Shown here piece after piece: positions 1,888-64,000 of a stretch of 64,000 nucleotides of DNA (position 1 is its first letter; each line of letters starts with the position of its first letter). Source of the stretch: Boothiomyces macroporosus (Eukaryota > Chytridiomycota > Chytridiomycetes > Rhizophydiales > Terramycetaceae); the NCBI GenBank assembly GCA_027604185.1, contig JADGKB010000040.1:1-64000 (forward strand). The letters are read 5' to 3'. The notes below the pieces were generated by a model. The model saw only the letters and a list, made by a program, of their open reading frames with translations. It was not told where the DNA came from and did no database searches. The position numbers and the translations under genes are program-made.

Positions 1888-3751
1888 TCAAGATCCTACA
1901 ATAAATGGTGATTTGGTCAAACCAGTAAAAGTGGTCATGTCAGGGAATCCAGCAGCATTACCAGAGGTTTTGATGCCTTGTGCAGCACATTGCTGGTAAA
2001 CATCAGCTGGAACTTTGATGCGTTGTTGCATTTGCAATGGAGCTTCAACAAATTGTGCTGCCAAGCCGGCTTGTACGTGCCATTGCTATAGTTAAAGACA
2101 TTCTTACGATATGACAATGGAAGAACCAAACACCTGGATTGTCTGCTACAAAACGCAAAACAGCATAAGAGTTCTTTGGAACCACGACTGTGTCTCGTCT
2201 TAGAGGATTTTGAACTGAATCTAATGGTGGCATGACAGAGTAATCAAACCCATACTTGATAGGAATAGATTCTCCATCCACAACAGCAAGCTGTCCCCTT
2301 CCAAGGACTTGGAAAGTATGTCCGTGCAAGTGGAATGGATGACCACCTTCAATGTCGGTATTTACAACAATGATTTCTATGTTTTTCATGTGATCTAAAA
2401 TCTGTGTATGGGCATATTTTCCATAAGTAGTGAGGTTGGTTGCGTTGTTTCCTGTGGACAATGCGGTAAATAGTGCAGGAACAAGTGGGAACTCAAAGAC
2501 TGTGTAGTTGAAAGCACCATGGTTGACATAATCAGAGAATTGTGCAAACATGGCATCCCATCGAAGACTTTGATCGGCTTTCAATGCAGCAAGAGGATAT
2601 TTTGGTTGAATATTCAAGTCGTTGAAAGTAGTTGGATCTGGAACTGGATCAGCGGGTGCAAGAGAGTTGGCAGCATTGTATCTGATCAAAGCAGTACCAT
2701 TTGGATTGAAACGAGATGGTAAAGTTTCTGCAGCAAACATGGATTGATCCAATTGGTAATGCAGATTGTAGTTTAGAGTAGAGTCTGCATTGGCAGTTAC
2801 GAGTACGGAATATCTTTGTGCAGAAGAAATACTGAGGAAGTTAGTTGAATAAGGAGTGGTAGGAACACCGTCAGTTTCAATAACTTGCATGGTGTGCCCA
2901 TCGATCCAAAAGTTAATTGCTGCAAATGTTGACATACAGACCAATCTTAATCTGTAAGTTTTTCCGGCTTCAAAATCAAACACTTGATTAATGGCATCAT
3001 TCAAAACAATAGAGTTTGGAATTGGTTCTAAACCTGCAGGGTTACCCTTTGGCTTTGTGAAATTTGCATACAAGAGATTGTACTTGTCATAGTACCAATC
3101 TGAAAGACCCAAAGTGTATTCTCCATCATACTGATAATCGATGCTATCTTGTGGAGATCTGATAATTAATGGAGTTCTGAAGCCATCAGGGTATTGTCCT
3201 GCATGGTGGGAATGAACCCAGTAAGAGCCATATTGATTAAGTTGAACTTTGTATGTAAATGATCCTCCATTAGCAGGGATACCACAATCAGTAATTCCAA
3301 GTGCACCATCATAATAGGCGGTTCCATTCTGGAATAATCCGTGAAAGTGAATGGACGAAGTTTCATTCAAGTTATTAACAGCGTTGATGATCAAAGTGTC
3401 ACCCATGTTGGCATATATTGGAGGGATCGGCCATACACCGTTTACTCCAATTACATCTCTGGCAAACAATCCATCAGGATTTCCATTCTTTACCCATCCA
3501 ATGTTCCAATTCAAAACAACTTGATTTGTTGCAGCAGGGACAGCAGATGTGGTAACAGTAGGTACATTGGTGGTTGTAGTGACTGTTGTGGTTGGTTTTA
3601 CTGTTGTAGTAGTAGCGGTTGTGGTAGTAGTTGTAGTGGTGGTTGTGGTAGTTGTAGTCGTAGTAGTAGTGGTTGTAGTAGTGGTAGTTGTAGTGGTAGT
3701 TGGATTTGGGCCAAATGCCGCTACAAATCCTAGTAGGTAGAGGTATTTCAT
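1888..3751 (-). CDS. Secreted laccase-type multicopper oxidase with a threonine tract
   Basis: Exons 2108-3751 and 1888-2085, separated by a 22-nt intron (2086-2107). The product has 613 residues. A signal peptide of about 17 residues precedes a tract of 28 threonines and further Thr/Val/Pro sequence, likely an O-glycosylated linker. Three cupredoxin domains follow. All four copper signatures are visible: SIHFHG, WVHSHHAG, GGHPFHLHGH and, formed across the splice junction, HCHIQWHVQAGLA. The residue ten after the T1 cysteine is Leu, as in many laccases. The family oxidises phenols, metals or similar donors and reduces O2 to water. Substrate cannot be decided from the sequence. Splicing is required: the unspliced frame loses the last copper histidine. 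Confidence 0.93.
3617..3700 (-). repeat. Poly-threonine codon repeat in the laccase
   Basis: Twenty-eight consecutive threonine codons, mixing ACT, ACC and ACA, directly after the predicted signal peptide. The antisense reading gives a spurious poly-valine frame. Confidence 0.9.
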
Positions 3752-3973
3752 TCTATAGTTTAACCAAAAGAGTTGGGTAAAATTGAATCATTTTTAAATA
3801 GCATGGTCACTGATTCGCACCATGCGGTCTTGATGTACGGTCAGATCAAAAAGGAAAAAAGGAGGATTTGAACAGAATGCGGGATTTCTGCGACTGGCTT
3901 CTTGGCCCTACGGAATAACGAACCACGCGCAAGACCCAAGAAAAAGTGGGGCCGAAATTTCACTCATATTATA

Positions 3974-4887
3974 TTAGATATTGTCAAGTTGACTTAATAC
4001 TGCATCAAGTCTTTCATTAATAACCAAGGAAGCCAGTGGATCACCTCTTGTTTCGCCCAAATTAACAATACAGATTGGCTTATCCAAACTATTTGCGTGT
4101 TTTACAAGTCTAAGCGCAGAGTACACTGTCAAGGAGCTGCCCACCACAACTAAAGAATCTGAATCGTCTATAGCTTCAAAGGTCTGATCTCGAACATGAT
4201 GCTTCATGTTTTCTCCAAAGAATACAACACTAAGATCAATCATGAAATACTCTGGCTTATAAACTCCGCCGCAAGAATTGCATTCTGGGTACTTGAATTC
4301 ACTGTAATCCCAAGTCACTTCAACATCACCATCTGGATTCACAGAGCTTGAAACATCGCCATCGATTTTATCTGGATTCTTTTGTGCCCATTGGGCAACT
4401 TGAGGGTTCAGAGAAGCCAGTTGATTTTGAAAGTCAAACCTGCTCATAGTCCCTTTACATTCCAAACATATCACTTTGTGAAGAGTACCATGCATTTCAA
4501 CCACACCATTGAAACCACTTATTGAGTGCAAACCATCTACATTCTGAGTCAGCAATCTGGTTTCTGGAAATCGCTGTTGAAATTTGGCAAGAGTATAATG
4601 GGATGAATTAGGTTTAGCCATGGATATTCTTGGCCAGCCTAAAAAAGACCTGGCCCAGTACCGCTGGCGGAAATCATGAGAAGATACAAACTCTTTAAGA
4701 AAACTCTTACCTGTTGATACTGAATTGGCTTGTAATCTTTGTTTCTTATATATACCCCGTTTGGGCCTCTGTAGTCTGGAATTCCAGAGTCGGTGGATAT
4801 TCCTATTGTCAATTCCTACTTGCCAGCTCCAGTCAGAAATGTAATTTTTGGATATTTCTGAACAAACTCTTTCAAGGATTTCGACAT
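3974..4887 (-). CDS. SIRT4-type (class II) sirtuin
   Basis: Exons 4824-4887, 4711-4802, 4251-4690 and 3974-4229 give 283 residues. The NAD-binding start reads TGAGISTDSGIPDYR only after removal of intron 1 (4803-4823), which is a 21-nt GC-AG intron. Intron 2 (4691-4710, 20 nt) restores QQFVSSHDFRQRYWAR. Intron 3 (4230-4250, 21 nt) contains no stop and stays in frame; removing it restores KPDVVFFGEN in the substrate-binding region. TQNVDGLH and the zinc Cys pairs (CLEC, CNSC) are present. SIRT4 relatives act in mitochondria as NAD-dependent ADP-ribosyl or acyl-lysine transferases. The start codon lies only 20 bp from the divergent ZIP start. No strong presequence is evident. Confidence 0.92.
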
Positions 4888-4907
4888 TTCTTTCCTTTCG
4901 AAAAAAC

Positions 4908-6065
4908 ATGGACGCAATACTTCCGTTTATCCCCAATTACTTGTTGGTCCTTTTTGAAGATAAAAACTCTGATGCGTTCGTTTATTCGTTCTGGGCAAGT
5001 ATGGGGACTTTTATTGGCGGAATTATTGTTGTTGCTCTCATTGGAATCCTTGGTGCAGACCCTACAGCACAAAGTACCTCGAGATTAATGGGAATACTTC
5101 AATCTATATCCGCAGGAGTAATGATATTCATGACTTGCTTTCACCTTGTACCGGAATCAAATGAAGTAATAGGAAATCGCGAAACAATGCTTTACTTTTT
5201 TGGAGGAGTGGTTGTGTTCTTCATACTGGAGATTATTGTCCACTTCATGTTGCCCCATGAACATGAAGCGGAAGAAACTCACAAGAAGCATGACAAGAAA
5301 CAAAAAGAAAAGCAAGTCATAAAGAACATGAGTGCAAAGGATTCGCTTGATTTGTATAGAACTAGTTTGATCACATTCATTGCGATGGCATTACAGTAAT
5401 TATTTATTCATATAGCAATATTCCCGAGGGTATTAGTGTCTATCTTGGTGCGCTGTCAAATCCAAAGATGGGACTACAATTAGCGCTTGCAATCTTGTTG
5501 CACAATGTTCCAGAAGGTATGGCGGTTGCAATCCCTCTTTATGCTTCTACAGGCTCCATTTTCCAAGTGCTTTTCTGGACTTTAATTAATGGTCTCGCAG
5601 AGCCATTTGGAGTGATTGGAGGAGGCATCCTATTGGCGCCATACCTGAACGAATACTTTTTATCAAGATGTCTTGCACTAGTCTCTGGAATAATGTTTTG
5701 TATTTCTATCAACGAGTTGTTCCCTGTGTCCATCAAGTACTGTGGCAAAACATTGGCTACTGTGAGCTTGTTTATTGGCATGCTGATTGGATGGGCTTCT
5801 ATGGAGATTGTTGAAGAATACTTTGGAGGGCATGGCCACGATGTATCAGATAGTTAATCGTAGCATTCTCACGGACACTCCCATGGACACCACCATCATG
5901 ATGTAAATAGTTTTTAACCATAGCATCACCATGTAAAATTGCGCTAACATGTAGCATGGTCACTCCCACGACCACCACCATCATGTAAGTAAGGTCTAAT
6001 CGTAGCACGGCCATGCCCATGAATCTTCCTTTGGAAAGTCTCATCTCAAGAAATTCGGCAACTAG
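4908..6065 (+). CDS. ZIP-family metal transporter with a His-rich tail split by four tiny introns
   Basis: Exons 4908-5396, 5417-5842, 5864-5902, 5924-5932, 5955-5984 and 6006-6065. The core is a ZIP (SLC39) protein: membrane helices from the N terminus, a charged loop, then the two metal-site motifs HNIPEG (formed across the 20-nt intron 5397-5416) and HNVPEG. The tail after GHGHD is encoded by short exons reading HSHGHSHGHHHHD, HHH, HGHSHDHHHH and HGHAHESS. They are separated by introns of 21, 21, 22 and 21 nt, all phase 0 and all carrying an in-frame stop. The chain ends at TAG 6063-6065. A first in-frame stop at the start of the tail would otherwise truncate it. His-rich stretches bind zinc or similar ions. 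Confidence 0.9.
5864..6005 (+). repeat. Diverged tandem exon-intron units in the ZIP tail
   Basis: Units of His codons (CACTCCCAYG..CACCACCATCAT) followed by GTAA...YTAA...TAG introns recur at 5864-5923, 5924-5954 and 5955-6005. The shared exon and intron layout suggests duplication of an exon plus its intron. Confidence 0.6.
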
Positions 6066-6076
6066 AACGTAATGAA

Positions 6077-6805: not shown

Positions 6806-7843
6806 ATGTTCAAAAGAGTATAACAAGTTCTAATAGTAGCAATTATCTGTTATCGGAAGACGCAGCGTATCGACTTTATTAGTAATTGAACAATCGCAAG
6901 GCACTCCTCTTGCATCCAATTTACATGCACTTTCAGCAGCCACTAAACTTGGATTCCCAGTAACTGCACTAGTTGCAGGTTCAGCAGCTCATGTTGAGGC
7001 AGCAGCCAAAGTTGTCGCTGGATATCCTGGAGTCACCAAAGTTTTAACCGCAAAGAATGACGTATTTGACCATGGATTAGCTGAACCACATGCAGATTTA
7101 ATTTCAGCTAGCGCCAAAGGACATTCCCACATTGTTACTGCACATTCTGCATATGGAAAGAACGTATTTCCTCGTGTTGGTGCATTGTTGGATGTCAGTC
7201 CAATCCCAGATGTAACTGAAATCATCTCTGCAGATACATTCAAAAGACCAATCTATGCTGGAAATGCCATTGCGACTGTCAAGTCAAAGGATGCTACTAA
7301 GGTTGTCACCATTAGACCAACTGCCTTTGCTCCAAGTGCTAGCACTGGCGGATCTGCGGCCGTTGAAGACACTACTGCCACTGGAACTGGTATGTATTTG
7401 AATAATATTAGCTCTATCTAAATGGGTTTCTGAAGAAATCGTCAAGAGTGACAGACCAAAATTGGAAGCCGCTAAAGTTGTTGTTTCTGGTGGACGTGGA
7501 TTGAAGAGCGCAGAAAACTTTAAATTAATGTATGACCTTGCAGATAAGTTGGGTGCTGCTGGTAATAGTCGATTTAATTATAGTTGGTGCCTCTAGAGCA
7601 GCATGTGATGCAGGTTACGCTCCACACGACCTTCAAGTTGGACAAACCGGAAAGATTGTTGCACCAGAAGCATATATCGCCATTGCAGTCAGTGGGGCTA
7701 TTCAACACTTGGCTGGTATGAAAGACTCTAAATTGATTGCCGCTATCAACACTGACCCTGAAGCCCCAATTTTCCAAGTTGCTGATTACGGTCTAGTAGC
7801 TGATTTGTTTGAAGCTGTACCAGAAATGATCAAGAAACTTTAA
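6806..7843 (+). CDS. ETFA: Electron transfer flavoprotein alpha subunit, mitochondrial
   Basis: Exons 6806-6817 (only 12 nt), 6840-7389, 7412-7561 and 7584-7843; all three introns are 22 nt. The product has 323 residues. The first two exons join into an Arg/Ser-rich mitochondrial presequence (MFKR then [12 protein letters not shown]). The C-terminal FAD domain is canonical: [21 protein letters not shown] (junction restored), [15 protein letters not shown] and [13 protein letters not shown] passes electrons from acyl-CoA and other dehydrogenases to ETF-ubiquinone oxidoreductase. It fits with the thiolase, acyl-CoA synthetase and CoA-transferase genes in the window. Confidence 0.97.
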
Positions 7844-9623: not shown

Positions 9624-10942
9624 CTAGATCACGTTACTATCTTTGAATGATTGAATTTCGTCATTATCAAAGCCTAGCTCTTGAAGAACCTGTGCGGTAT
9701 GCTCTCCAAGAACTGGGGGTGGGAGTCTAATTGATGGTTTAGTCTCACTGTATTTTACAGGAATACCTGTCAATTTGATATCCCCAGCTGTCGCGTGTTT
9801 TACAGTTTGAATCATTTCGCGGTGAACAACCTGCGGATGTTCAAAAGTTTGTTGGATATTATTCACAGGACCGAATGGAATACCTGAATTTTTAAAAAGC
9901 TGGAGCCATTCTTTTGTACTTTTCAATCTGGTGGACTTTGAAATTTCTGCAGTCTAGGTCAACTAAAACACACCAAGACTTTTCTATTCTTTACTCTGAG
10001 AGCATTGGTTTTATGTTGCTCACTAATGAGATCTTTACGCTTGATGGTGTTGCAGAATTTGATGTATTGTGAATCATTTCCTGCACCTACCACGATTTGC
10101 CCGTCCTTTGTTGGGAATGATTGATAAGGTACTATGGAAGGATGCATGGTACCCCATCTCTTTGCTTCAACTCCTCCAATCAAGTAGCTAGACCCAATGT
10201 TTGCCAATGTGGCAACTTGACTTTCCTACAATGAATCCTGGCTTACTAGTAACGAAACATCTATTTTCTGGCCTTTTCCATTACTTGATCGAGCATATAA
10301 TGCAGCCAAGATGGCGCCTTTAGCATATAATCCCGTTGTTAAATCAATAACCGCAACCCCAACCTTTACTGGTTGTCCATCAGGCTCTCCAGTGATGTGC
10401 ATCATTCCAGCCTCCGCTCTATCATCAATATCGATCTACTCTATAATAACATCATAGCCAGGTCGTTTTGAATAGGGTCCAGTAGGTCCATATCCAGTAA
10501 TTGAACAATAAATAAGCTTTGGGTTGATTTTCTTCAATTCATCATACCCCAACCCCAACCTATCCAATTTCCCAGGCAAGTAGTTTTCAATTAGTACGTC
10601 GCTATTCTGTGCTAGTTTCTTTACAATCTCTAATCCCTGTTCAGTTTTAAAATTGATTGTTATTGATTTTTTGTTGCGATTCACCCCCAGAAAGTACGCA
10701 GATTCTGGTTCGTCTTTTGGGTTGATTGGCTTTGTGTATGGCGGTCCCCATTTGCGAGTGTCATCTCCTGAAGGATGTTCGACTTTGATTACATCTGCGC
10801 TAGAATTAACGAACAAGCACCCAAGATCCCCCAGCATCATGCTGCAGTAAGGCCCAGCGAGAACTCGAGTAAGGTCAAGCACTTTGATGCCGTTTAATGG
10901 GCCGGTGGACTGATATCTCTTTGCAAGTCGTAAAAACTTCAT
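9624..10942 (-). CDS. Class III acyl-CoA:CoA-transferase (CaiB/SUGCT family), mitochondrial
   Basis: Exons 10821-10942, 10440-10799, 10247-10418, 9974-10225 and 9624-9953; introns of 21, 21, 21 and 20 nt; 411 residues. The basic N terminus ([12 protein letters not shown]) looks like a mitochondrial presequence. Family motifs are [20 protein letters not shown], then [15 protein letters not shown] directly after intron 1 (21 nt, stop-free), GVNRNKKSI, the catalytic-Asp segment [12 protein letters not shown] (junction restored), ITGEPDG, and [11 protein letters not shown]. Human SUGCT makes glutaryl-CoA from glutarate; relatives use other dicarboxylic acids, so the substrate is uncertain. The start is 9 bp from the divergent TFB1M-like start. 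Confidence 0.93.
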
Positions 10943-22800: not shown

Positions 22801-25125
22801 TTAGTTGATACTTGCCTGATCAAGGATATCGGCAGTTTCCAAGTCCCAGTAGTATAGATCATGTTCCGCTATCAGGCTCCATACAAAAGGCACATTAAAT
22901 TTATATGCCTCGGGATCGATTTCAGAAACGAATTTGATTGGCTCGAGTATCTATGTTAGCACTAGGTACTGTCAATTTAGCTGCGCTCCACGTTTGACTC
23001 GCTTTCTCTATAACTGCCATTATGGTGTCAACTGTTCGAGTTTCTAGCTCTGTTTGTTCAATCTTTTCATTAAAGTGATTGATGGTCTATATTAACTGCA
23101 ATTACATTTTCAATATTTCCAACTAGAACAGAAAACCTGTCGTATTTTTCCAGTTGAAGAAATATCTCCTTTCTTTGTAACAGAGTATACACTAAATGAG
23201 GGTTATGAGCAAGGTTATGGGATATTACAGAATTGAAAAATTCTAGGAAAAGGGCTACCAAGTCACTGTATATTGCCCTTACAACAGAATTCGGACCAAG
23301 GGATTTGAAATCAATAAGACTGTCATCTTTTTCCAAAACTTTAGTTCTTTTACCCTCCTCTGTCAAAGTTTGCTCATCATATTGGAAAATCTTAAAGTAT
23401 TTTTTGCTGATTTGCTCAAAAACACTAGGTTAGGAACTAGATACCTAATAATTCTTTGAGCAACAACAGTGTCCAAGTCTATGACAGCGGTGGATATATT
23501 TGAAAGTATACTGAGGCAAACTGTATGTATATGGATATCATGGTGTTTGGAGAGATTAATGTGAATTGTCCGAATTAATACTAGTATTAGTATTCCTCCT
23601 AATGATATATTCTTTAAACTTCTTTCTGTGTACCATGGTATCTGAGCGACAACCATTTTTTGTATAAACTTGTTGTACACTTCATCCTGAGATAATATTA
23701 AAAGAATACCAAGCTGAATATACAAATAGCGGTGCTTTAGGATATCTTGAACAGAGTCATAGACATTTTGAAGTATGGATATAAGCATCGCTTCTGGGTC
23801 TGTCCTTGATAAAAAGTAAATCTTGAATTCAGTATTTAAAAGTAGCAGGTGATACAATAATATCCCAACTTCTTCCCTTTTCAAATCACTTGGATTAACA
23901 CTATGATACCTAGCTATTGTTTCAAATATTTGTTTAAAAGACAACAAACTATCAGGAGGAGCTTCTAGAATGGGAGATGCTGGGCCTAGGTTAGTTGAAT
24001 GTACCATTAGTATTCTTCATTTCTTTGATTGCGTTTGAATAAGCATTCTCCTTTCCATCATTGTGTTGGGTTATCAATAAGAGAATCAGCGACAGACTTT
24101 TGTTCCTCAGTGCGTTTGTGAAATGTGGGTTGTAAAGTTGTTTAGGAAATATATACGAATATGCACTGAGAAAAATGCCTGGATAAGTATAAAGTACCGC
24201 TTCGCCCCACCGTTGGAGGAGATTGGTTTTCAATAAAGTTTCTAACAAGTCTAGCAATTAATCCGTTGGCAAAATATCTAGATTAACTGGTATATACCCG
24301 AATTGATTCAATGCCAAGTCTAGATACAAATGATCCACAGTTTTAGATGTGATTGGAGAGTACAACTCACTAGAAAACAGAATAGTCACTAGATCAATGG
24401 TTTCTAAATAGAAGGAATAGTTCATTGGAGATCTATCTTAGATTAAATATACGTGGTATCTGCAAAAATCAAAGTTTGAAGTATTTCCTCCATCAATGCC
24501 AAACTCCTTGAACGCTTATCCAGTAATAAATTCGAATCAATCTCCAAAACCTTTCCACTTACACTAGATCGACGACGTCCAATTTTTGGATTTGGTGTGC
24601 GAGGTTCAGTCATCTTATCCACTGATTAACACAATATTTACATTCCATAGTATTAACCAGTTCATTCTTGTTTAATACCCTGATAAAGGTTTTCAAGAAC
24701 ACCCTGATCGAGTACAGTGCGTTCCTCGCTTCGTATGGCCAATCGCAATCGTAAGCTCTGTTCCTAGCCTTTTTGAGATGAGTCAAGAAATACAATAGGA
24801 GCTTATTAAAGTTTTTCGTTTCATGATTAGTGTTCAGCATTTCCGTGGCTATTATTGTCCCCGCATGATCATATACCATTACCAGGTGTCTTTTGTTAAG
24901 AAATCTGTACTCGTTATATAACGGCAACTCACAATAAAATATCCTTTCCCACACTGGTGAATCCGGAAAATCATGGACTCCAGTGCAAAGCTTCAACAGA
25001 CCGTCAAATATTGGATTGGTGAGCATCTTTGTAGTTTCTGTGATCGATACTTCGCTTCTATTTACAATCTTCTTTTCCTCTTCATGGAGCATCGTATCAA
25101 TAGATAATTTCGCATCCACCATCAT
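22801..25125 (-). CDS. DYM: Dymeclin (Golgi-associated protein)
   Basis: Nine exons: 24642-25125, 24453-24621, 24298-24432, 24198-24277, 24005-24178, 23445-23985, 23106-23424, 22970-23086 and 22801-22950. The eight introns are 20, 20, 20, 19, 19, 20, 19 and 19 nt. The spliced frame is exactly 723 codons. The strongest family block is PWYTERSLKNISLGGILILVLIRTI followed by HTVCLSILSNIS and AQRIIS. Others are YEARNALYSIRVFLKTFIRVL, ALRNKSLSLILLLITQ, NLAHNPHLVYTLLQRKEIF and the C-terminal FVWSLIAEHDLYYWD. Dymeclin is a peripheral Golgi protein of uncertain biochemical role. The number of consistent tiny introns makes this gene the best internal proof of the splice model after PAN3. Confidence 0.95.
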
Positions 25126-46922: not shown

Positions 46923-49005
46923 ATGTCAGATACAACAAGGGCCGAGGATAAAATGAAAGAAAATGAGCCGGAATTAGATTTGAAGAAGCTAGACCTGAAA
47001 GATGACAAAAAGGCGAATTTCAAAGAACGAATCATCGAGTCAATAAAGTCCAAAGAGTATGAAAACGTCAAAGTGAGTCTATACGATACCTTCTCAAATA
47101 TGAAGAATATGATTACTTCATTTGCGAAATTCGAAACGGTAATTACAATTGATACTAGTCCCTAGATTGCTATATCATACATCTGGGAGAATTTCTAAAG
47201 TGGTTTCACGAGATTGTGACATTTGAGAATGAAGTAGCGATTTTGAATGGAATAACTACACTATTGGATCATATTCAGAACGGCGTACAAGAAATTGGGA
47301 AGAATGATTATTTGTGCTTTGTCATCATAGTGATACTTCCTATTTTGCAGGACCCCGATGCCAGCATGACTGTACTTCCCAAGCTGTGCCAAATACTCGC
47401 CAAATTTACTCAGGCTGACAAATTTGGATTCGCATTTATTCTGCAAGAATCAATTCAGCACAGTGGAAAGACACCAATGGAAAAATCACAGTTTTTCAAA
47501 CAGATGATACAGTTATTTCAGCAATATTTGACCATTCAGATATTAAACTCTGAAGCAGGTGCAGATCCTGACGAAAAAGTCATCAATGTGGTCCAAACCC
47601 TGTCTATTTTTGGTACTTTTAGTTCTTACTTAGCTGCAATCAACGAAACCAATAACTTTATACCTTACTATGAATTATACAATGAAACTGTTGAAGAATC
47701 GCTAGATTTGAAGGAGGACTACCCAAAGTGGAAAGTACACGATGGCTTTTCGTTCTGCAATTACTCGTTTCTGCTTAGTACGGCTACCAAAGGTGATATT
47801 TTGCGAATAGAAAGTATGATTCAGATGCGCCATGAATTACAGGATTCCTTTTTTAGAGCCATGTTTATTGGTGTAAATAATCCTTACCTTCAACTTGAAG
47901 TAAGAAGAACCAATATCATCAGAGACACTTTGTATCAACTTGAGGGCAAAACCAACCATGATTTAAAGAAACAGCTGCGAGTGTCTTTCTTGGGTGAGGA
48001 TGGGATCGATGAAGGTGGTATCCAGAAAGGTACTCTATACTAATAAGAATTCTTTCAAATAATTTCCAAAGAAATGTTTAGTTCAAATTATGGAATGTTT
48101 GTAACAAACGAAGATTCAAGAACTAGTTGGTTCAGTTATTGGGAAGGATCTTTAGATGAAGAAACTTTAGCAGAGTACAGCTTGCTCGGAAAACTGATCG
48201 GGTTGGCTTTTTACAATGGAGTAGCTCTTGACATCAATTTCACTGCCGCTGTATATAAAAAATTGGTCAACACTCCTGTTCAATTATCTGATTTGACGGA
48301 ATGGGATCCGGCACTGGGAAAAGGACTGGCACAACTATTAGATTACGAGGGCGATGTCGAGCAAGATTTTGGAAGAACGTTTTCAATTGACATGATAACT
48401 GTGTTGGGAAAGCGAGTATCAATTGATTTAGTCAAAAATGGTTCAGAGATAATGGTCACTAATTCAAATAGAGAAGGTAAACTATATTAATATAGAATAT
48501 GTTGCACAGTATCTGGAATGCTTCTTTTCAACAAGTGTGGATGAAGTATTCAGCGCTTTCCAACAGGGGTTCAATTCAGTAATGAATGGCTCAGCAATAT
48601 CCCTCTTTCGGGCTGAAGAAATCCAAGAACTAATTTGCGGCAGCCCTTCACTCGATTTTAAAGCGCTTGAGGAATCAACAGTGTATGACGGGTATGAGCC
48701 AGATACCCCAATAATTAGGTATTTTTGGGAAATTGTCCAAGGTTTCACTGATGAACAAAAGAAGCAATTCTTGGTATTCACTACTGGATCTGATCGAGTT
48801 CCTGTTGGAGGTCTTGGCAAGCTGCAGGTAATTTTAGCTTACAAAGTTTGTTATCGCAAGGAATGGAACCGATAGTGACCGTCTTCCCACATCTCATACC
48901 TGTTTCAATGCACTGCTACTAAGCGAGTATTCTTCCAAAGAAAAGTTGCAAGATCGACTGCTGTTGGCTCTTGAAAACCGCAACTGTGGATTCTATCTAA
49001 ATTAG
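46923..49005 (+). CDS. HECT-type E3 ubiquitin ligase (UBE3A-like)
   Basis: Exons 46923-47138, 47159-48029, 48048-48476, 48496-48827 and 48847-49005; introns of 20, 18, 19 and 19 nt; 668 residues. The C-terminal HECT domain is complete: [22 protein letters not shown] (junction of the 18-nt intron), [36 protein letters not shown] (19-nt intron), [43 protein letters not shown] (19-nt intron), and LPTSHTCFN with the catalytic Cys. The pattern is nearest to E6AP/UBE3A and yeast Hul4. No AZUL finger is visible. The start lies 54 bp from the divergent PAN3 start. Confidence 0.94.
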
Positions 49006-49066: not shown

Positions 49067-50225
49067 CTAATAGACGGTTTGGCGCTTTGCTTGCGCTGCA
49101 AATTCATCCTCCGGCGTAATAACTTCGTCCATATCTTTGAGAGGGTAAAATTCACCAGTTTTAATGCCAACATCAGCAGAGTACAAGCTGGTTCTTCCAA
49201 CCTTTTCAATCAAACCAGAACTTGAAGCTTTCTCGTCGTTTACCATGAACACACCAATGAAAATGGTAAAGAATCCAACCAGAACAGAAATCATTTCCAC
49301 CTTGATTAGTAATAAGCTTACTGGAGAGGATTTTTGAACACCCTGCCCTAAAATAATCGAAGCGATGATGGTCGCGCTGGTAAAGAATACATAATAAACT
49401 ACGTTAAATCGGAGAATACTAGGCGTAACGCGGTTTGTGGAAAACAAGTCTAATGCTTTGTTGAAATAGTTTACTTGGGTCATTGCGCAAACAAGAACTG
49501 TTAGGCCAAACACCCAGGTTGAAAAGTGCTTAAACTGATTGTCACCAGCAAAGGTCAATTTAACAGCAACAGCAAAGCCCTTTACTGCCATAACTGAAAT
49601 GGAACCAACCAAAGAGCAAATTGTAATGTATACAAGCATGTGAGTCTTTCCATAAATTGGACCAACTTTATAGATGAGATATAATGAGATGCTGATGATT
49701 GCTATCATGTAAAACATGAATCCTGGTTGAACGAAATGCTGAAATACGCTATCTACCGTATCGTAAGACTCCTCCTCTGGAGCATGCAAAATAACAGTTA
49801 AAGAGCCCAAGACACATAATCCGCATCCAATAATTCCATCTTTACCCAGCTTTTCATTTAAAAAGATGGAAGAGAGTATAGTTCCAACCAAAATGGAGAC
49901 CGCACCCAACGGCGTTACCAATATGGCAGGTGCAAATGAATAAGCAAGAAAGTTGGCGATTTCTCCCATAACCACTATTATTAGATCTTCAATACTTGTC
50001 ATAGTTCCAGCCCACCACATTGGTGTTTTGAGAAAGTCATAGTTCTCCCCCGCTTTGCCTTTTATTACACAACTATATACCTCCGTTCTTTCCAGACTCT
50101 ATCAACCCTTTCTTTGTGATGATAAAACTAATACCAATAAGCACTCCTGACGCCAGCGCTAGTCCCAGCCCAGTATACTTGTCTGCTTCTGCTTGTTGAT
50201 CTGTTATTACCCCCTGTGTGCTCAT
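49067..50225 (-). CDS. NIPA-type magnesium transporter
   Basis: Exons 50081-50225, 49996-50058 and 49067-49974; introns of 22 and 21 nt; 371 residues. The family run GISFIITKKGL, then KAGENYDFLKTPMWWAG, then GEIANFLAYSFAPAILVTPLGAVSILV is restored only when both introns are removed. The second (49975-49995) is a 21-nt stop-free intron inside WWAGTMTMVMGEIAN. About nine membrane helices follow. The C-terminal tail is charged (DMDEVITPEDEFAAQ). NIPA proteins transport Mg2+ across endosomal or plasma membranes. Confidence 0.95.
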
Positions 50226-51117: not shown

Positions 51118-52800
51118 TTATTTTCTTCCATTGAAATTATTGAATAATCCCATAACATCTTCTGATGTTGGAATGCGAAGATTCTGCATTGACAGGGATC
51201 TTTGCCTTTCCAAAGCCTTTAAATAAGTTTCATCAATATCCCCAGTGATATAGCATCCGGTGAATACAGATACGTCAAACTTTTTGATTGCGGGATTGAA
51301 TTTAGCTACAGATTCTACTAGATTTTCCAAATCCTACATTTAAATGATTATTACTTGATATATAATTTTTTCAGCGCCAATTTCCTTTGCAATCTGTTCG
51401 GTAGTACGATTGTAGGCAATAAGTTCTTGTCTAGTTGGCATATCAATTCCATAGACATTTGGATACCTAATAGCAGGGGCACAAGAAGCAAAATAGACCT
51501 TTTTGGCTCCAGCCTCTCTTGCCATCATGATGATTTCACGAGATGTAGTTCCTCTCACAATTGAATCTAATTGTTAATGCAATGCAACCGTCAACAAGGA
51601 GTACATTCTTCCCAGCAAATTCCATCGGCATTGGGTTCAATTTTCTTCTGACTGATTTAATGCGCTGGGTTTGGCCTGGCATGATAAATGTACGACCAAT
51701 ATATCTATTTTTGATGAATCCTTCACGATAAAGCTTGTTCAGCTTGTATGAGACTTGTAACGCAGCAGTTCTGCTAGTGTCTGGAACTGGAATAACAACA
51801 TCAATATCATTATCTTCGCCCAATTCTTTAATTACTTGGGTTGCTAAGGCTTCTCCCATCGCTAATCGAGACTTGTAAACCGAAATGCCATCCATAATTG
51901 AATCAGGTCTTGCAAAGTATACATATTCGAAAATACATGGAGTAAAGTCTTTTGCCTCAGTACACTGTCTAACTGAAACACCCTCTTTGGTAATCATAAC
52001 ACCTTGGCCAGGTTGAACATCAATAAAGTCAGAATATCCTAATGATTCCAAAACAACACTTTCAGATGCCATCATATAATCGACACCAAATTCAGTTTTT
52101 CTAGATCCATAGATTAAAGGGCGGAGGCCATGTGGATCCTAGCATAAATTACAAATTACTCTGAATCCAAGTATACCGAATCCTGCAATCATCAAAATAC
52201 AAGCATATCCACCCAAGCACATGTCAAATAATTTAGTTAATGCATTGAAAATATCATCTTCGTTGATTCTAAAATGAAGTTTGGATTACCTTGACTTTCC
52301 TGTTTGCTGCAAATGATCGGCAAACACATTTAGCAACACTTCAGAATCGGATTCAGTATTCACATGTCTATGGGCAACTTCATCAAGATACTTTCTCAAC
52401 ACTGGGGTGTTTGTCAAATTTCCGTTCTTGATTAATAAAATCTTACATGCGCACAAACCAAACCGTATGGGCTGTTGACATAGAACGGCTGGGCTTCTGA
52501 ATTTGAGGAAGTGCCTGCTGTTGGATAACGAACTGCATAAAATCAATAATTACCATGGCCAACACCCATTGAGCCCAAGAGCTGGGTTAATTGCGAAGGT
52601 GGAAACACATCCCTAACCATTCCATTAGCTTTGCACTGATATAATCGACCTCTTTGCCCACAAGTAACAATCCCTGCTGCATCCTTTCAATTAAATATTT
52701 TTACTTGACCACGATGCTGCAACAATCCCAACGCTTCGTATATTTCTGAATTACAGCTAGTGTTGGTGTCTGCTAAAATACAACCTGCAATTCCACACAT
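51118..52800 (-). CDS. PPAT: Amidophosphoribosyltransferase (purine biosynthesis)
   Basis: Exons 52705-52800, 52554-52683, 52447-52532, 52290-52426, 52160-52268, 51589-52138, 51355-51566 and 51118-51333; introns of 21, 21, 20, 21, 21, 22 and 21 nt; 511 residues. The N-terminal glutaminase has the nucleophile in [10 protein letters not shown], then [33 protein letters not shown] and CAHNGNLTN. The PRTase part has [36 protein letters not shown] and the PRPP loop [18 protein letters not shown], several of them formed at splice junctions. It catalyses the first committed step of IMP synthesis from PRPP and glutamine (yeast ADE4). Confidence 0.97.
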
Positions 52801-54238: not shown

Positions 54239-55276
54239 ATGCAGGGAGAACCATCTCAAGAATTGCCTTGGTATCCTTGGATTAATCGTAGGATTGAAAA
54301 GTACAGACCAAAGTTATTGCATGATATAGTCGGGAATGAAGAGACTGTCCAGAGGTTATCGGTAATTGCAAAGGATGGAAACATGCCAAATCTAATCATT
54401 TCGGGAGCTCCGGGTATCGGGAAAACAACCAGCATCTTATGCCTAGCTCACGAATTGCTGGGCGATAATTACAAGGAAGCGGTTTTGGAAATGAATGCTT
54501 CCGACGAACGTGGTATTGACATAGTAAGAAATCGCATAAAAATGTTTGCACAGAAAAAAGTTACACTACCACCAGGTAAACACAAAATTGTTATCTTGGA
54601 TGAAGCAGACTCAATGACTACTGCTGCTCAGCAAGCAATGCGAAGAACCATGGAGATCTATTCCAGCACTACTAGATTTGCTTTGGCATGCAACTTGTCC
54701 ACCAAAATTATAGAGCCAATTCAAAGTAGATGCGCCATTTTACGCTATACTAGACTCACAGATTTACAGTTGTTGACAAGATTACTTCAAATTTGCGAAT
54801 ATGAAAAAGTAACTAGAAATGTAACTTTAGGTAAACTACACGAATGAAGGTCTAGAGGCCATCGTATTCACTGCGGAAGGCGATATGAGACAAGCAGTTA
54901 ACAACCTCCAATCAACATATTCTGGTTTTGGAATTGTGACACCAGCCAATGTATACAAGGTTTGCGATCAACCACATCCTGTTGCTGTTCAGTCAATCAT
55001 CAAATCCTGTATTGATTGCAAAATTGAGGATGCCCTCTCTTTATTGGAAGATTTGTGGTCCAAGGGCTATTCGGCGGTAGATATAATTACTACACTCTTC
55101 AAAGTTACTAAATCGATGGAAATGCCTGAATTTCTGAGGTTGGAATACATCAAGGTATTTTTTTCTAATTTTAGGAGATTGGAATGTGCCATATCCGATT
55201 GTTGGAAGGCTGCCAGACCCTTTTGCAAATTAGCGCATTAATTTCCAAGCTTTGCAGTTTGAATCAAATTAAATAA
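54239..55276 (+). CDS. RFC2: Replication factor C subunit RFC2 (yeast Rfc4)
   Basis: Exons 54239-54270, 54292-54808, 54831-55154 and 55175-55276; introns of 21, 22 and 20 nt; 324 residues. Intron 1 is stop-free and in frame; removing it gives [19 protein letters not shown]. Walker A is GAPGIGKTT (Ala replaces the first Pro of GPPG), Walker B ILDEADSM, and the arginine finger SRC in IEPIQSRC. Intron 2 gives [13 protein letters not shown] and intron 3 EYIKEIG. The sequence follows human RFC2 closely. RFC loads PCNA onto DNA. Confidence 0.97.
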
Positions 55277-56573: not shown

Positions 56574-57146
56574 ATGATAGGGTTACAAGACCTCGTCAAC
56601 TTATTTATACGACATCCTCAAATCCTATTGGCTGTGTTCATTACCGGAATTACCATCGGGTACACACTATGCTATTTTGGATTGAAATCACAGAGAAAGT
56701 TGGATATTACAAAGCCGGCTAGTTCTAAATCGCTTCATACCAAAGATTACAACTGCAAAATGGTCTTGGTTATCCGTACTGATTTGGGAATGGGAAAAGG
56801 AAAGGTAGCAGCACAGTGCTCTCACGCTACACTGGATGCTTACCAAAAATCCCTGGAATCTGAAAAATGGAGTGAGTGGGTTGATTCATGGGAGACATAC
56901 GGATGTGCAAAAATCACTTTGAAATGCAATGACGAAGACGAAATGTAAGATTGAACTGATTTAGGCTTCGATTGCAACGAGAAGCTAGAAAGAAAGGATT
57001 GGTTGCGCAAAGCATCTGCGATGCAGGTAAAACCCAGATTGCGGCGGGCTCAAGGACAGTACTAGCGATTGGACCTGGTAGATATTGCTAATATAGGCCC
57101 TGCAGAACTAATAGATGAAGTAACGGGAAATTTAAAATTGTATTGA
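56574..57146 (+). CDS. PTH2: Peptidyl-tRNA hydrolase 2, membrane-anchored
   Basis: Exons 56574-56944, 56965-57077 and 57097-57146; introns of 20 and 19 nt; 177 residues. An N-terminal membrane helix (LLAVFITGITIGYTLCYFGL) precedes the catalytic core KMVLVIRTDLGMGKGKVAAQCSHATLDAY. Splicing restores the catalytic block MLRLQREARKKGLVAQSICDAGKTQIAAGSRTVLAIGPGP. PTH2 recycles peptidyl-tRNA; in animals PTRH2 sits on the mitochondrial outer membrane. The stop codon is followed after one base by the stop codon of the convergent kinase gene. Confidence 0.96.
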
Positions 57147-57147: not shown

Positions 57148-58229
57148 TTATTGTTTAAATGAATCTGTCCATTCCTTAAGATTAAACATACTGCCCTTTT
57201 GAACAAAAGGAGTTTCCTACAATAAACTCGTATTTACCAATAGCTGTTTGGGATGTGGACGCTGCAAAGGATCTTTCATCAAGCAAAACCCGCAAAAGTC
57301 TTCAAATTCTGGTGTAAACATATTCTTTGGAAGAGTAGGGCTTTTTTCCTGAGTAATGAACTGCATCATGTCAAAATAGGTTTTCATTGCTTCGCTTGGG
57401 AATGGGAAGCGCGCCAATGCAATTTCCATAGCCACAAGACCAACACTCCAGACATCAGAAGCTGGAGTGCAAGGCGACCCTTCTCTGATTCGCTCAGGCT
57501 ATATTTAATATGAATTTACTGCTAAAAAGCATTGAGTGCCAATAAACGTCATTGCCATAGTCTCGGCAGTTTCTTTGGATACGCCAAAATCAGCAATCTT
57601 GGCCAATCCTTGTGAGCTTACCAATATATTGCTGGGTTTGATATCTATATAAGCCTCGTGGTACCTCTATGAACAATTTTGTGGTTTTCGTACAAATAAG
57701 TCAGGCCAGACAAAATCTGAAAACATATCGTTGATACTGCAATCTCTGGTATTGGTCCAGTTCTGTTGTAAATTGAATCTAGGGCACCCAGATCCATAAA
57801 CTCTAGCATAATGTTGATCTCCTCTCCGTGCAAAAATGCCCCATAGAATGATACAATATAGGGTGATTGGACTACACGTAATATTCTGAGCTCTCTAATG
57901 ATTTGCTTTTCAATTTTCTCTTGATTCTCATCGTTTGGTGCCAATTTCACTATTTTTCTGGCCATTGCAATTCCAGTGGGTTTGTGTAGTACTTTGCTGA
58001 CAGTGCCTCCAGCCCCAGCACCCAAATTGCAAATAAACGTCAAATCTTCATTTACAAAGTTGATTTTAGAGTCCTTTTTCACATTATTTTCGTTTAAATC
58101 TGATTGAGGTAATTTTAAATTCGATAAGGAACCAAGTGATTTTAGAGCAGGCACGCCTAGTCTTTTTCGTGCTAGAACTGGTGACTGGATTGCTGCGGTT
58201 GTTGGAATTCCTATTCCCTGCACTCCCAT
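57148..58229 (-). CDS. MAPKK-like (STE7 family) protein kinase A
   Basis: Exons 57665-58229, 57520-57644, 57238-57498 and 57148-57216; introns of 20, 21 and 21 nt; 339 residues. The kinase core has LGAGAGGTVSKV, the catalytic Lys in MARKIV, EFMDLGALDSIY, HRDIKPSNIL (junction), [22 protein letters not shown] and LAPERI (junction). The activation loop has the STE7-type S/T-x3-S/T pattern. The N terminus starts MGVQGIGIPTTAA, similar to kinase C. It is the first of three tandem paralogues. The upstream activators and MAPK target are unknown. Confidence 0.92.
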
Positions 58230-58302: not shown

Positions 58303-59519
58303 TTAAGTTTTATTAATATTAAGAACTTTAGTATTTTTTCGAAGTATCGCCGGCAGCGTCTTTATCCATTCCCTTAAATCTGGAGTTTTCCCCTGGTACT
58401 TTACAAATGGATCCTCCTAAAATTAAAAATAAATACCAGGAGTTTGCTGGCCGGTGGCCGTTCATTTTCATCCTTGGTCAAGCATAAGGAACAGAAATTT
58501 ACAAAATCGTGTGAAAACGCTTGCTTTGGTAATGTTGGCACGGGTCCATTCTTTATCGTTGGAAGAATGTCAAATAAAGACTTTCTTTTAGAATCGGATT
58601 CGTACAGCCAGTCCGTCTCATAAGGAAACCTTGCCAAGGCTACCTCCATTAAAGCCAAACCCAAACTCCAAATATCAGACTTTGTGGTGGACTTTTTGTT
58701 GTTGTCAGTTTGCTCCATTTGCTCAGGCTACGGTTAATAATACTTACTGCCAAATACATTAACGTCCCGACAACACTTTTAGCTGGTGAAAGAAGTGTTT
58801 GTTTCGATAATCCAAAATCTGCTAGTTTGGCAAGTCCATCAGAACACAGAAGAATATTTGCAGGTTTGATATCTTGTAAGTTAAGTGTTACCTCTATGTA
58901 CAATCTTTTCGTTTTTATCAAAATAATCGAGTGCTTTGAGCATGTGAATTGCTATTATATTTACTTCCTTTTCAGGGACTGGCCCAGCAACTTTGTATAT
59001 ATACTCTAAAGATCCCAAATCCATATACTCCAGAAACATTGATATTTTTTGACCATTAAGGAACGCGCCATAAAAGCTGGTTATGTAAGGGCAATTACAC
59101 TGCCGTAGAATATTGAGTTCTCGCATAATATTCATTTCCGTCTTTTCCAAAGTATCCCCGTCAAGAGCATTTATAATTACATCTTTTCGTGCCATAAACA
59201 TACCGTTTGGTTTGTACAACACTTTTGTAACGCTGGCAAACGAACCATTTCCAATCGCTGATATGTACTGTAATTTCGATTCATCAAATTCGAATAAAGA
59301 GTCTTTGCTGATGTCCACATTGCTCAAATTCAATTGAAGGCTTTGTATAGAAGTATTTATTTCCAAATCCACAGATTTACTGATTCTTTTTGGCAGCTTT
59401 GACAGCCCAACTGGATCTGCCAAATTGCCCATCGAGTGAAAATTGTCCTTGTACATTCCGTTCTTTTCTGGTTTTTTCTCTTTCCTATCCTCCCTCAGCA
59501 GTCTTTTGAAAACACCCAT
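58303..59519 (-). CDS. MAPKK-like (STE7 family) protein kinase B
   Basis: Exons 58892-59519, 58748-58872, 58437-58727 and 58303-58416; introns of 19, 20 and 20 nt; 385 residues. Core motifs are [44 protein letters not shown] (junction), DFGLSKQTLLSPAKSVVGT and LAPEQM (junction). A basic N terminus of about 80 residues (GVFKRLLREDRKEKKPEK) may dock a MAPK. The intron in HRD-DIKP and the one before PE occur at the same positions as in kinases A and C, showing common descent. Confidence 0.92.
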
Positions 59520-59586
59520 AGTGAACTTTGGAGACAATGATCCAACGATCTAAAAAAGACAATGTAACGAAAATAATAATATATAT

Positions 59587-60729
59587 TCATAAAGATAAAA
59601 CATTAAACGTTTTAATCCAGTCTTTTAAATCGTAGTTGTTTGAAATACATTTCTTGATAAATTCAGTGTTCTGCGTTAGCATGTTAATACCATCAGTGTA
59701 TGTGCATTTGGTCGTGCTAAGTGATCCTTGATCAGACACTGTCCACAAAATTCCTCGAATTCTGGGGAAAATGTATCCTTTGGTAAAGTCGGACTGGGCT
59801 CTTCAGTGATATAAGGTAACATATCGAATTGGTTCTGCAACAGCTCTTTAGGGTACGGAAATCGCGCCATGGCTATTTCCATCACTGTCAAGCCAAAACT
59901 CCAGATGTCACTTGTGCCTGTGGACTGCTGTCCTTGCTGTAGTCTTTCAGGCTAAAGATAAACTATATTCACGTACCGCCAAGTAATAGAACGTGCCGAC
60001 GAACGTTTTTGCAGCGGATTTGAGGGTTTCTTTGGATACTCCAAAATCCGACAGTTTGATCACACCCTCTGAGCTGAGTAATATGTTTGCAGGTTTAATA
60101 TCTTTTGTTATCGTGAATTACCTCTGTGAACAATTTTATGATGCTCTTCGAGATATATGAAAGCTGAAAGAATTTGAAAGGCAATCACGCTGATTTCACG
60201 TTCCGGAATTGGCCCTGTTCTATTGTATATGCTTTCCAGCGATCCCAAGTCTACATATTCCAACATTACAGAAATCGTATTGTCACTGATAAACGAGCCA
60301 TAGAATCCAACAATGTTGACGCACTGACATAGGCGGAGAATATTCAATTCCCGCAGTATCTGAGATTCAATTTCCTTGAGGTTTTCATTTTCATTTGTCG
60401 GAGGTAGACTGAATCGCTCAATATTAATAAATATATCACCAAAATTAATAATTCCGTACCTTTCGGGCCATTACCGTCTTTGTAGGTTTGTGCACCACCT
60501 TATAGACAGTGGATGTTACTCCAGAGCCGATGTAAGCTACTAGCTCCAACTGATTTTCATCAAAAGAATACTTTTCGTTTGTGATTACAAATTTGTCCTG
60601 ATGATTAGGTAATGCCGGCTTGTCATCTTGATTGAATAGTGGCAACAAAGGAATGGTTGCCGCGCTATGTCTCTTCTGCCTTAGGCTCCCTGGTGTAGTG
60701 GGAATAGTGAGGTTACTTTCGATTCCCAT
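59587..60729 (-). CDS. MAPKK-like (STE7 family) protein kinase C
   Basis: Exons 60460-60729, 60122-60416, 59977-60101, 59691-59951 and 59587-59670; introns of 43, 20, 25 and 20 nt; 344 residues. Motifs are [18 protein letters not shown] (junction of the 43-nt intron), [24 protein letters not shown] (junction), [19 protein letters not shown] and LAPERL (junction). The start is the first ATG in frame ([14 protein letters not shown]), resembling kinase A. The 43-nt intron looks like two introns placed back to back (20 plus 23 nt). The other two kinases lack an intron at that site. Confidence 0.92.
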
Positions 60730-61197: not shown

Positions 61198-61205
61198 TAT
61201 AAATA
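61198..61205 (+). promoter_or_regulatory. TATA box of the GATA factor gene
   Basis: TATAAATA 26 nt upstream of the ATG at 61231. Confidence 0.7.
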
Positions 61206-61230
61206 GAAACCAGAGCAGGATTTTCCAGAA

Positions 61231-62019: not shown

Positions 62020-62140
62020 ACATGTATCTCTTAAGACCATCCTGCCAACTGTATTTTAGGCACTTGTATAAAACCACCAATCCGATACTTTTAATAAAAA
62101 TAATTGATTTCCTTGACATTTTGAATTAAATTTGGTTTTA

Positions 62141-62711
62141 TTAAAAGTCGTCTTCCGGATTGAATCCAGCGCCATAGTCCTCTGTGGTAATTAAATTGTA
62201 TCCAACACCAGAGACCCTATCCAAATCAATAGTCCTGGTATTATTGGTCAAGCTGGTCTTGTTTCTATGTTAATTGCGGTTACCTCTGCACTATCATACC
62301 AAGTCTCGCTAATTGAATAATATTTCGCAACACCAGCATTACTTCTTCCGCGACGGCTTGCGATGATCCACAAGTGCTTTTCATCATCAATATAAACACC
62401 AATACACACAGACAAACGAATCCCACGTCGAAAATATTATACAGTGATTGCCAAAACTCGTCGCCGACTGCTATTACTCGCATGGTAGTCTCTACAACCA
62501 TGCTAATCATAATTATGAATTCTAATACATAAAACCATCCCATTGGACAAGGATGTATCAGCGACTGGGTTTAGATTCTATTTACTGTTATTAGACAAGT
62601 CAACGATAGGATAGTCATTGCAATATAAAATACTTTGAATCCAGTTCCATGTACGATCCTGCTTGCAACTGCGGACAAGAATTCAGACCTGTTATTACCA
62701 TACGATTGCAT
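62141..62711 (-). CDS. Stand-alone voltage-sensor domain protein
   Basis: Exons 62586-62711, 62284-62564 and 62141-62264; introns of 21 and 19 nt; 176 residues. Four membrane segments fit S1-S4 of a voltage sensor: FKVFYIAMTILSLTCLIT, FYVLEFIIMISMVVETTMRVIAVG (with the E-x4-R pattern of S2), NIFDVGFVCLCVLVFILM (the S3 Asp) and MLVLRNIIQLARLGMIVQR (S4 with spaced Arg). No pore helices follow; the C terminus is polar and acidic. Such proteins may be proton channels (Hv1-like) or regulatory sensors. The start is 18 bp from the divergent site-2 protease start. Confidence 0.8.
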
Positions 62712-62729
62712 TTTCACTTTTTGCCAAAA

Positions 62730-64000
62730 ATGCAAAGCCAGTTCAGATGGTCGTATTCATGGGGGAAATTAACGATACGCACCCTGCTATTTAACGATTG
62801 GTTTCGCCATCGGGGATACTCTAAAATGACGGAAGTTTGGTTTTATTGCGGCATTATCTTCAGTTTGATTACAATATTTATGATGCCGATACTTCTCGGA
62901 ATGTTTGTGCTCACGTTTACAAATACAACAAGTATATCGTTTGATCAGCTCTCTCCGAAATCGTATTTCGCTGGACCAAGCAGTTTAATGCCAATATCCA
63001 ATTCTCCGTTCACAATAATGGTAATATAAAAGTAATATTAGATCCCAGGTTTGACTATTCCAATATCGGGGACTTTTTATTGGGCATTTTCCATGTTGCT
63101 TTCTGCAATTTGGCATGAACTTGGCCATGGGATCGCAGCTGCAAAGTAAGATTTCAATAATGGTAGCTATAGCGTCACACTACTACACTCTGGATTATTC
63201 TTATATTTAATTTTACCTGGTGCATATGTATCTTTGAGGGCATCAGAGTTGAAGATGAAGAAGCCACTCCAGCGATTAGCTGTAATTGGTGCTGGCCCTT
63301 GGCATAACATCACACTTGCACTAGTATCCAAGAGTATTCTTGAAAACTTGCCCTATCTAATTTCTTGGGGCTATGAATGTGTAAAGTTCATTTCAGTTGG
63401 AAGTGTAATTGTTCAGGAAGTTACGCGCGGATCAGATTTATCAGCAGTACTTAGAAGAGGTAGTTATTGATTTACTATAAGGCTCTATTATAAAAAGCAT
63501 AAATGATGTACCGCTCACTGGAGGGATTGAACAATATCACAATATCCTGGATCAAATAGTACAAGATCCCCACTTGCTTCCGCTGCGTTGTGTAGATGTT
63601 TCGCAACAAACAAGCAATTGCTGTTCAACAATAGATATCAAGCAAAATGCAGCCAAGTATTGTATATGGGACTCTGAATCTCTTCAGAACTATCGTTTGG
63701 TGGAGCATACCGGATACACCAATGTAATCCCCAATAAATGTGGATATATGAATGCAAATTTTTCAAATGGGACGATCTGTAAAACTTCAGAAGACTGCAA
63801 TGGGCAAAGCTGTATGGGGCCATTTATACCATCTTTTGAAAGGGTCTTGCATTTAATTATCAGTCCTTCAACCAGCCCCACCAGAAATCATTCAATTACA
63901 TTCATCGGAGAAGTAAACTCGTTTCAATCGATAGTTACAGTAGGGGAATTACTACCAAAGTACCCCTTCCTGCCTATTTCATTTCCCTATATTACTGAAA
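62730..64000 (+). CDS. MBTPS2: Site-2 protease (MBTPS2 type), 3' end beyond the window
   Basis: Exons 62730-63020, 63042-63145, 63167-63459 and 63482 to the window end; introns of 21, 21 and 22 nt. An N-terminal membrane region leads to IWHELGHGIAAAN, the HExxH zinc site of site-2 proteases. ILPGAYVSL, LAVIGAGPWHN and a PDZ segment VTRGSDLSAVLRRGSIIKSIND (junction) follow. A Cys-rich lumenal part (SNCCSTID, CIWDS, NKCGYM, CKTSEDCNGQSC) parallels the human protein. The second catalytic Asp motif lies beyond 64000. The enzyme cuts membrane-bound transcription factors such as SREBP in the Golgi. Confidence 0.94.

Follow-up and report, generated by a model that had tools for sequence, protein, structure and literature searches.

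Spliceosomal introns of about 20 nucleotides appear to be the rule in the genome of a Boothiomyces chytrid

We have analysed a window of 64,000 bases of genomic DNA (bases 1–64000 of contig C40, which is 111,705 bases long, in a genome of 15.2 Mb and 216 contigs), in which most predicted genes appear to be interrupted by introns of about 20 nucleotides (nt). Trained gene models placed 43 genes between 1888 and 62711, 36 of which carry at least one intron; 108 of the 110 predicted introns are 18–25 nt long, with 16, 34, 38 and 15 introns at 19, 20, 21 and 22 nt, respectively. Within the error of either method, this fits a first-pass annotation of the same DNA, which had counted about 120 introns, all but three of 18–26 nt. 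The two remaining introns measure 52 and 160 nt; the former is real and lies in a malate dehydrogenase gene, and the latter, in a kinase model at 59587–60729, is an erroneous call that we rejected, as by eye it covers kinase coding sequence. The trained models carry a preference for the splicing motif and for short lengths, so that the share of long introns which they report is a lower bound.

The closest named proteins come from chytrids, in agreement with the earlier attribution of the DNA to a fungus; Neolecta, an initial candidate, was rejected on these grounds. The amidophosphoribosyltransferase (PPAT) encoded in the window is 93% identical to that of Terramyces sp. JEL0728 and 80% identical to that of Globomyces pollinis-pini; its dymeclin (DYM) is 83% identical to that of Terramyces JEL0728 and 78% identical to that of Boothiomyces sp. 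JEL0866; and the Isy1 of this genome is 98% identical to that of Boothiomyces sp. JEL0838, which, like Terramyces JEL0728, belongs to the Terramycetaceae. From these protein identities the source is taken as a Boothiomyces chytrid at or near JEL0838 (Rhizophydiales, Terramycetaceae, Chytridiomycota), which we assume to be free-living.

Homology supports 50 of the 110 junctions: 27 are in register with homologues, being gapless on both sides in at least one aligned relative, and 23 lie inside single Pfam matches. In the dymeclin gene (22801–25092, minus strand; the model omits a short first and last piece), all ten junctions, at introns of 19–21 nt situated between 22951 and 24910, align in register with one or both of two close relatives; the first-pass annotation had counted eight introns in this gene. 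Its count of seven introns in the PPAT gene (51118–52800, minus strand; introns 51334–51354, 51567–51588, 52139–52159, 52269–52289, 52427–52446, 52533–52553 and 52684–52704) was exact, and all seven junctions are in register with orthologues. Comparison with proteins of known structure was gapless at all four junctions of a 3-ketoacyl-CoA thiolase (31071–32356, plus strand; introns 31119–31142, 31288–31309, 31697–31718 and 31888–31908; PDB 4c2j, 506 bits), at all three of a replication factor C subunit (54239–55276, plus strand; introns 54271–54291, 54809–54830 and 55155–55174; RFC subunit 2, PDB 6vvo_B, 470 bits) and at all three of the malate dehydrogenase (40503–41587, minus strand; introns 40766–40787, 41244–41295 and 41522–41545; PDB 2dfd), one of these being at the alignment edge. 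The 52-nt intron at 41244–41295 is the sole longer intron of the window to be confirmed. For PAN3, to which eleven introns had been assigned, the presumed model is partial and contains seven.

Nine further genes were judged by the extents of their Pfam matches: of their 33 junctions, 23 are enclosed by one such stretch and the other ten fall outside domains. All junctions are so covered in a CoA-transferase III (9624–10942, minus strand; introns 9954–9973, 10226–10246, 10419–10439 and 10800–10820; CoA_transf_3, 446 bits), a serine hydrolase (25190–26094, minus strand; introns 25447–25466, 25739–25758 and 25885–25906; Hydrolase_4), a NIPA magnesium transporter (49067–50225, minus strand; introns 49301–49321, 49399–49419, 49975–49995 and 50059–50080; Mg_trans_NIPA), peptidyl-tRNA hydrolase 2 (56574–57146, plus strand; introns 56945–56964 and 57078–57096; PTH2) and a protein kinase (57148–58229, minus strand; introns 57217–57237, 57499–57519 and 57645–57664; Pkinase). 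Coverage is partial in a second protein kinase (58328–59519, minus strand; introns 58380–58399, 58417–58436, 58728–58747 and 58873–58891; three of four junctions in Pkinase), a HECT ubiquitin ligase (46923–49005, plus strand; introns 47139–47158, 47613–47633, 48030–48047, 48477–48495 and 48828–48846; two of five in HECT), the electron transfer flavoprotein alpha subunit (6806–7843, plus strand; introns 6818–6839, 7390–7411 and 7562–7583; the third junction in ETF_alpha) and a ZIP zinc transporter (5001–6065, plus strand; introns 5396–5415, 5843–5863, 5903–5923, 5933–5954 and 5985–6005; the first junction in Zip). In the histidine-rich tail of the last protein (5843–6005), four tiny introns are packed into ∼160 nt, and one pair of them flanks an exon of 9 nt (CATCACCAT). 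Each intron is followed by CAT or CAC, and the tail resembles a series of repeated exon-plus-intron units, in which introns may have been gained through local duplication.

The length peak also appeared in a gene finder with a flat length prior, which used only codon statistics and GT...AG ends, took lengths of 8–150 nt as equally likely and was applied to 264 kb from eight contigs; its codon model was itself trained on a first GT–AG pass. Introns of 19–22 nt made up 47 of its 127 calls, as compared with 8 of 106, 3 of 100, 4 of 110 and 7 of 106 calls when four decoy dinucleotide pairs were substituted. Thus, GT...AG ends are imposed by the finder, but decoy dinucleotides give no peak. Among its 52 introns of 18–24 nt, 50 start with GTA and 34 contain YTAAY, although they were picked without branch information; shuffling their interiors 200 times gave a mean of 7.9 and a maximum of 16. 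Looser penalties weakened the contrast, which nevertheless persisted (84 calls of 17–26 nt against 20–37 for the decoys at −4, and 111 against 29–59 at −3). Outside 18–24 nt there were 75 calls for GT...AG and 94–106 for the decoys, so that nothing here points to long introns as a large class. Some longer introns are real, as indicated by the enrichment of YTAAY in calls of 25–60 nt (12 of 24; 5.7 expected, highest shuffle 11). A self-trained run that allowed GC donors under lenient penalties diverged, calling 4,592 ‘introns’ in the 264 kb, and was discarded in favour of a stricter one.

In the same 264 kb, the trained models gave 374 introns in 162 genes, 121 of which are intron-bearing. Lengths were 18–25 nt in 367 cases, with a mode of 20 nt and a median of 20–21 nt on each of the eight contigs; one intron was of 16 nt and six exceeded 40 nt, at least three of the latter being doubtful calls of 145–196 nt. 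The 368 short introns have a GC content of 29%, a donor of the form GTA(A/T) (332 start with GTA) and an acceptor that is usually TAG. The first-pass annotation had described a YTAAY motif near the ends of its introns; this is exact in 239 of the 368, and most of the remainder agree at four of the five letters. Where the motif is exact, the branch adenosine is at position 14–16 in 222 introns, and in 203 the tail after it measures 5 or 6 nt. Of the 368 short introns, 342 shift the frame (268) or are multiples of three carrying an in-frame stop (74), and 26 are multiples of three that can be read through.

A scan of the window for GTA[ACT]...YTAAY..AG found 60 matches at 19–22 nt, where 20 dinucleotide shuffles predicted 9.6, and no comparable excess elsewhere at lengths up to 80 nt. 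The pattern is genome-wide: across the 15.2 Mb there are 4,202 matches to the strict motif, as compared with 634 to the pattern read backwards, and in the sample 75 of 78 strict-motif matches coincide with model introns. Correcting the difference for recall, (4,202 − 634)/(75/368), yields ∼17,500 tiny introns, and scaling the density of 374 per 264 kb yields ∼21,500. Both totals are rough, since the recall derives from models trained on the motif and some segments of the assembly are duplicated; the genome would thus hold, very roughly, 17–21 thousand tiny introns.

Deposited proteins of relatives differ from the window's models at the same places. Precisely at the sixth PPAT intron of the window (51567–51588), the Terramyces protein carries an insert of seven residues, GICYLTL, which could be encoded by retention, in the matching phase, of a 21-nt segment of the form GT...TTTAAC...AG. 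The dymeclin of Boothiomyces JEL0866 lacks 39 residues that are exactly the window exon between introns 9 and 10, and which Terramyces retains; it also lacks a stretch of 11 residues that ends at intron 3, and another stretch of 11, which ends at intron 2, is absent from Terramyces dymeclin. When differences at the ends are set aside, all four internal indels of these three proteins touch junctions in the window, whereas the two single-residue indels of Globomyces PPAT lie away from junctions. This suggests that some intron sites are probably shared within the family and that public annotation stumbles at them, with the deposited proteins apparently including a tiny intron that was left in and missing pieces of exon that were skipped. 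The splicing implied by the deposited Isy1 of JEL0838 matches our model at five of six introns. The first Isy1 intron (L037, ∼1259–1307) can be read either as one intron of 49 nt, following the JEL0838 protein, or as a pair of tiny introns that flank an exon of 4 nt.

Genes for splicing RNAs were found with their pairing stretches. Two U2 genes exceed the gathering score and carry the standard pairing stretch GTGTAGTA; the branch motif YTAAY suits pairing with the GUAGUA of U2 around a bulged A. A single U6 gene contains ACAGAGA (62.2 bits; gathering score 44), and a single U1 gene contains ACTTACCT at 68.8 bits, just under the gathering score of 69.5. The two U2 genes (L002 and L003) have similar 5' halves and diverged 3' halves.

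Six of seven splicing proteins sought were found: SF1, Slu7, Prp18 and Isy1, each with a Pfam match over the cut-off; Cwc25, whose Cir_N domain likewise exceeded it; and U2AF65, for which profile positions 168–471 (230.7 bits) and a second piece, 466–505, were matched. U2AF65 remained below the whole-protein cut-off of 310.3, presumably because the gene is split by tiny introns; its spliced model has RRMs and doubtful last residues. The seventh, RED, gave no match in an RED_N profile search run without a positive control. Introns this short left several losses to consider. In yeast, a very short gap between branch and acceptor can make Slu7 and Prp18 dispensable; both genes are present here, and their loss was rejected, as was loss of U2AF65 for want of room for a pyrimidine tract. 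A loss of many splicing factors, as in mikrocytids or microsporidia, was not seen among the seven proteins. Cwc25 begins MGGGDLNLKKSWHP, so its glycine plug is kept, and a loss of the plug like that in Stentor was also rejected. RED is reported to be needed for short introns in human cells (PMC6692369).

The one mechanistic lead that departs from a standard spliceosome concerns Isy1, which is said to touch the intron backbone during branching, and whose N-terminus, reaching into the active site, is not conserved in Stentor (PMC9505925). Among the best 120 of 265 Isy1 homologues, an ARN..K-type motif lies within the first 15 residues of 77, whose sources include plants, animals, other chytrids and an amoeba; 36 start at a later Met, mostly with L.RF or the like, one has MARDAEK and six do not show the motif. 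Two of these six are the Boothiomyces protein, which begins MAPKTLAQKQE, and that of Globomyces sp. JEL0801, which is intermediate (MANNQKEKQKSVVHRFRE); each of the remaining four is either a short fragment or an odd model. An upstream exon encoding the standard motif was not seen in the forward frames, a search that a motif split by an intron would escape. Judged by its residues, the N-terminus that is conserved in plants, animals and other chytrids thus appears rewritten here, as in Stentor, and this apparent convergence is a lead.

Several side observations were made. Cwc25 matches of equal score occur on two contigs (L034 and L035; C49:3542–3652 and C100:5137–5247) and two RRM matches with identical scores lie on a single contig (C20:74242 and C20:119309), which suggests duplicated segments or uncollapsed haplotypes in the assembly. 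Within the window, the intergenic interval 27021–27160 is, by eye, a short tandem repeat with a unit like CTCTCTACACTGCTACTACT. The first 4 kb are more GC-rich than the rest (0.455 against 0.37–0.41), and a minus-strand gene in 1–1340 looks intronless by eye; it may be a recent or transferred gene.

We conclude, with a probability of about 0.93, that these are major (U2-type) spliceosomal introns, reduced genome-wide to ∼20 nt in this Boothiomyces chytrid, splicing itself being something that we infer from the DNA. The proposal that such introns are the rule here is borne out by the length peak, the effect on reading frame, homology, motifs and the pairing stretches of the small nuclear RNAs. 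Some results pull the other way. An exact YTAAY is lacking from 129 of the 368 short introns, and 26 of the 368 are readable as coding sequence, so that some may not be introns; longer introns occur, at 52 nt in the window and in other calls of 41–49 nt; and the bias of the models towards short lengths and the motif makes length shares and genome totals rough. With regard to mechanism, the unchanged Cwc25 plug counts against applying in full the steric-clash idea developed for Stentor, the suggested role of Isy1 is drawn from sequence divergence, and the Isy1 of Globomyces sp. also departs from the consensus.

The alternative that survives best accepts tiny introns and denies them any special adaptation: a standard fungal spliceosome would handle 20 nt, and the change in Isy1 would be drift. 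That every protein sought other than RED was found, and that the Cwc25 plug and the U1, U2 and U6 pairing stretches are unchanged, are consistent with this, as is our own reckoning that a geometry of abutting helices needs only ∼19 nt. Nevertheless, our searches of openly licensed papers in PubMed Central turned up no report of such introns as the rule in a fungus, and drift would have to have struck an N-terminus kept in plants, animals and other chytrids and rewritten in Stentor too; we put this account at a little under even odds. Far behind it is the idea that these are normal fungal introns of 40–80 nt whose edges had been trimmed to fit: introns of 41–52 nt do occur, flat-prior calls of 25–60 nt are enriched for YTAAY and relatives' deposited models sometimes imply a larger gap at these places, but the 27 gapless junctions, together with the 39 residues absent from JEL0866 dymeclin, which form an exon between two tiny introns and are retained in Terramyces, make it very improbable. 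Equally hard to credit, and with nothing found in its favour, is the idea that the segments are not removed from RNA, being instead sequencing indels, DNA eliminated like that of ciliates or stretches hopped over by translation, given donor, branch and acceptor motifs with a narrow length on all eight sampled contigs, encoded splicing RNAs and factors, and a JEL0838 Isy1 that implies the same splicing at five of six introns, albeit as a separate gene call made on what is perhaps the same assembly.

If the segments are tiny spliceosomal introns, their anatomy suggests how they might be accommodated. U1, and then U6, would pair with about nt 1–6, and U2 with the branch motif a few nt further on, so that the donor and branch helices would nearly abut; branching would leave a lariat loop of ∼15 nt and a tail of 5–6 nt, much like that of Stentor. 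Abutting helices and a minimal tail would set a floor of ∼19–20 nt as the least length that accommodates donor, branch helix and acceptor without abnormal pairing, and deletion bias may have driven most introns down to it. The rewritten Isy1 N-terminus is a candidate for the change by which so tight a loop could be accommodated. A more ambitious version, which we regard as tentative and rather unlikely, is that this rewriting opened the branching active site in a free-living chytrid lineage, in which 20-nt introns, some tens of thousands of them, became the default while the spliceosome stayed canonical and the branch motif clear; that the same change arose independently in Stentor; and that it is the N-terminus of Isy1 which determines how short a eukaryotic intron can be.

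Introns of ∼20 nt are near the smallest reported for any organism. Tiny introns are known from chlorarachniophyte nucleomorphs (18–21 nt), heterotrichs (15–16 nt) and mikrocytids (16–17 nt) (PMC10245619). Boothiomyces resembles Stentor coeruleus in its GU–AG, U2-type introns of near-fixed length, in the kept U1, U2 and U6 pairing stretches, in an Isy1 N-terminus that is not conserved and in the tail after the branch adenosine (5 nt in Stentor, 5–6 nt here). In contrast, Stentor introns are of 15–16 nt rather than mostly 19–22 nt, with the branch adenosine at position 10–11 rather than 14–16 and a lariat loop of 10–11 nt rather than the ∼15 nt inferred here; Stentor goes lower without a strong branch consensus, whereas Boothiomyces has a clear YTAAY and stops near 20 nt; 18% of Stentor genes bear introns, as compared with 121 of 162 models here; and the Cwc25 glycine plug is missing from Stentor and kept in Boothiomyces (PMC9505925). 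Nucleomorph introns have almost the same length range, but in a relic nucleus of ∼300 genes as opposed to a 15.2 Mb fungal genome. Mikrocytids share the narrow size and conserved motifs, but are parasites with 224 introns and 17–19 detected spliceosome proteins, whereas in Boothiomyces introns number in the thousands and the few factors tested show no reduction; microsporidia, which are fungal kin, also have short introns, but few per genome and with reduced spliceosomes, whereas those of Boothiomyces are dense (PMC10245619). In Paramecium and Nyctotherus ultra-short introns are likewise the rule in a nuclear genome, but these are ciliates and their introns, at ∼25 nt, are slightly longer (PMC5014332).

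Within the fungi, a survey of 644 genomes calls a mean of 63 bp, in Cryptococcus, ‘relatively short’ (PMC8476143). In openly licensed PubMed Central papers we found no description of a fungus whose introns are as a rule near 20 nt, and within that literature the first-pass statement to the same effect holds. Boothiomyces is thus the first fungal case that we have found there of a known phenomenon, its canonical-looking spliceosome being the point of interest. There is a warning for annotation: length floors, such as the exclusion of introns below 30 bp in a pan-eukaryotic survey (PMC10639083), drop such introns, and the deposited proteins of relatives appear to be affected. Earlier hosts of tiny introns were ciliates, a relic algal nucleus and parasitic rhizarians, in which reduced or divergent spliceosomes blur what limits length. 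A chytrid with a standard branch motif, and standard factors as far as these were tested, would make the limit of intron length addressable in a fungus, against the background of laboratory yeast.

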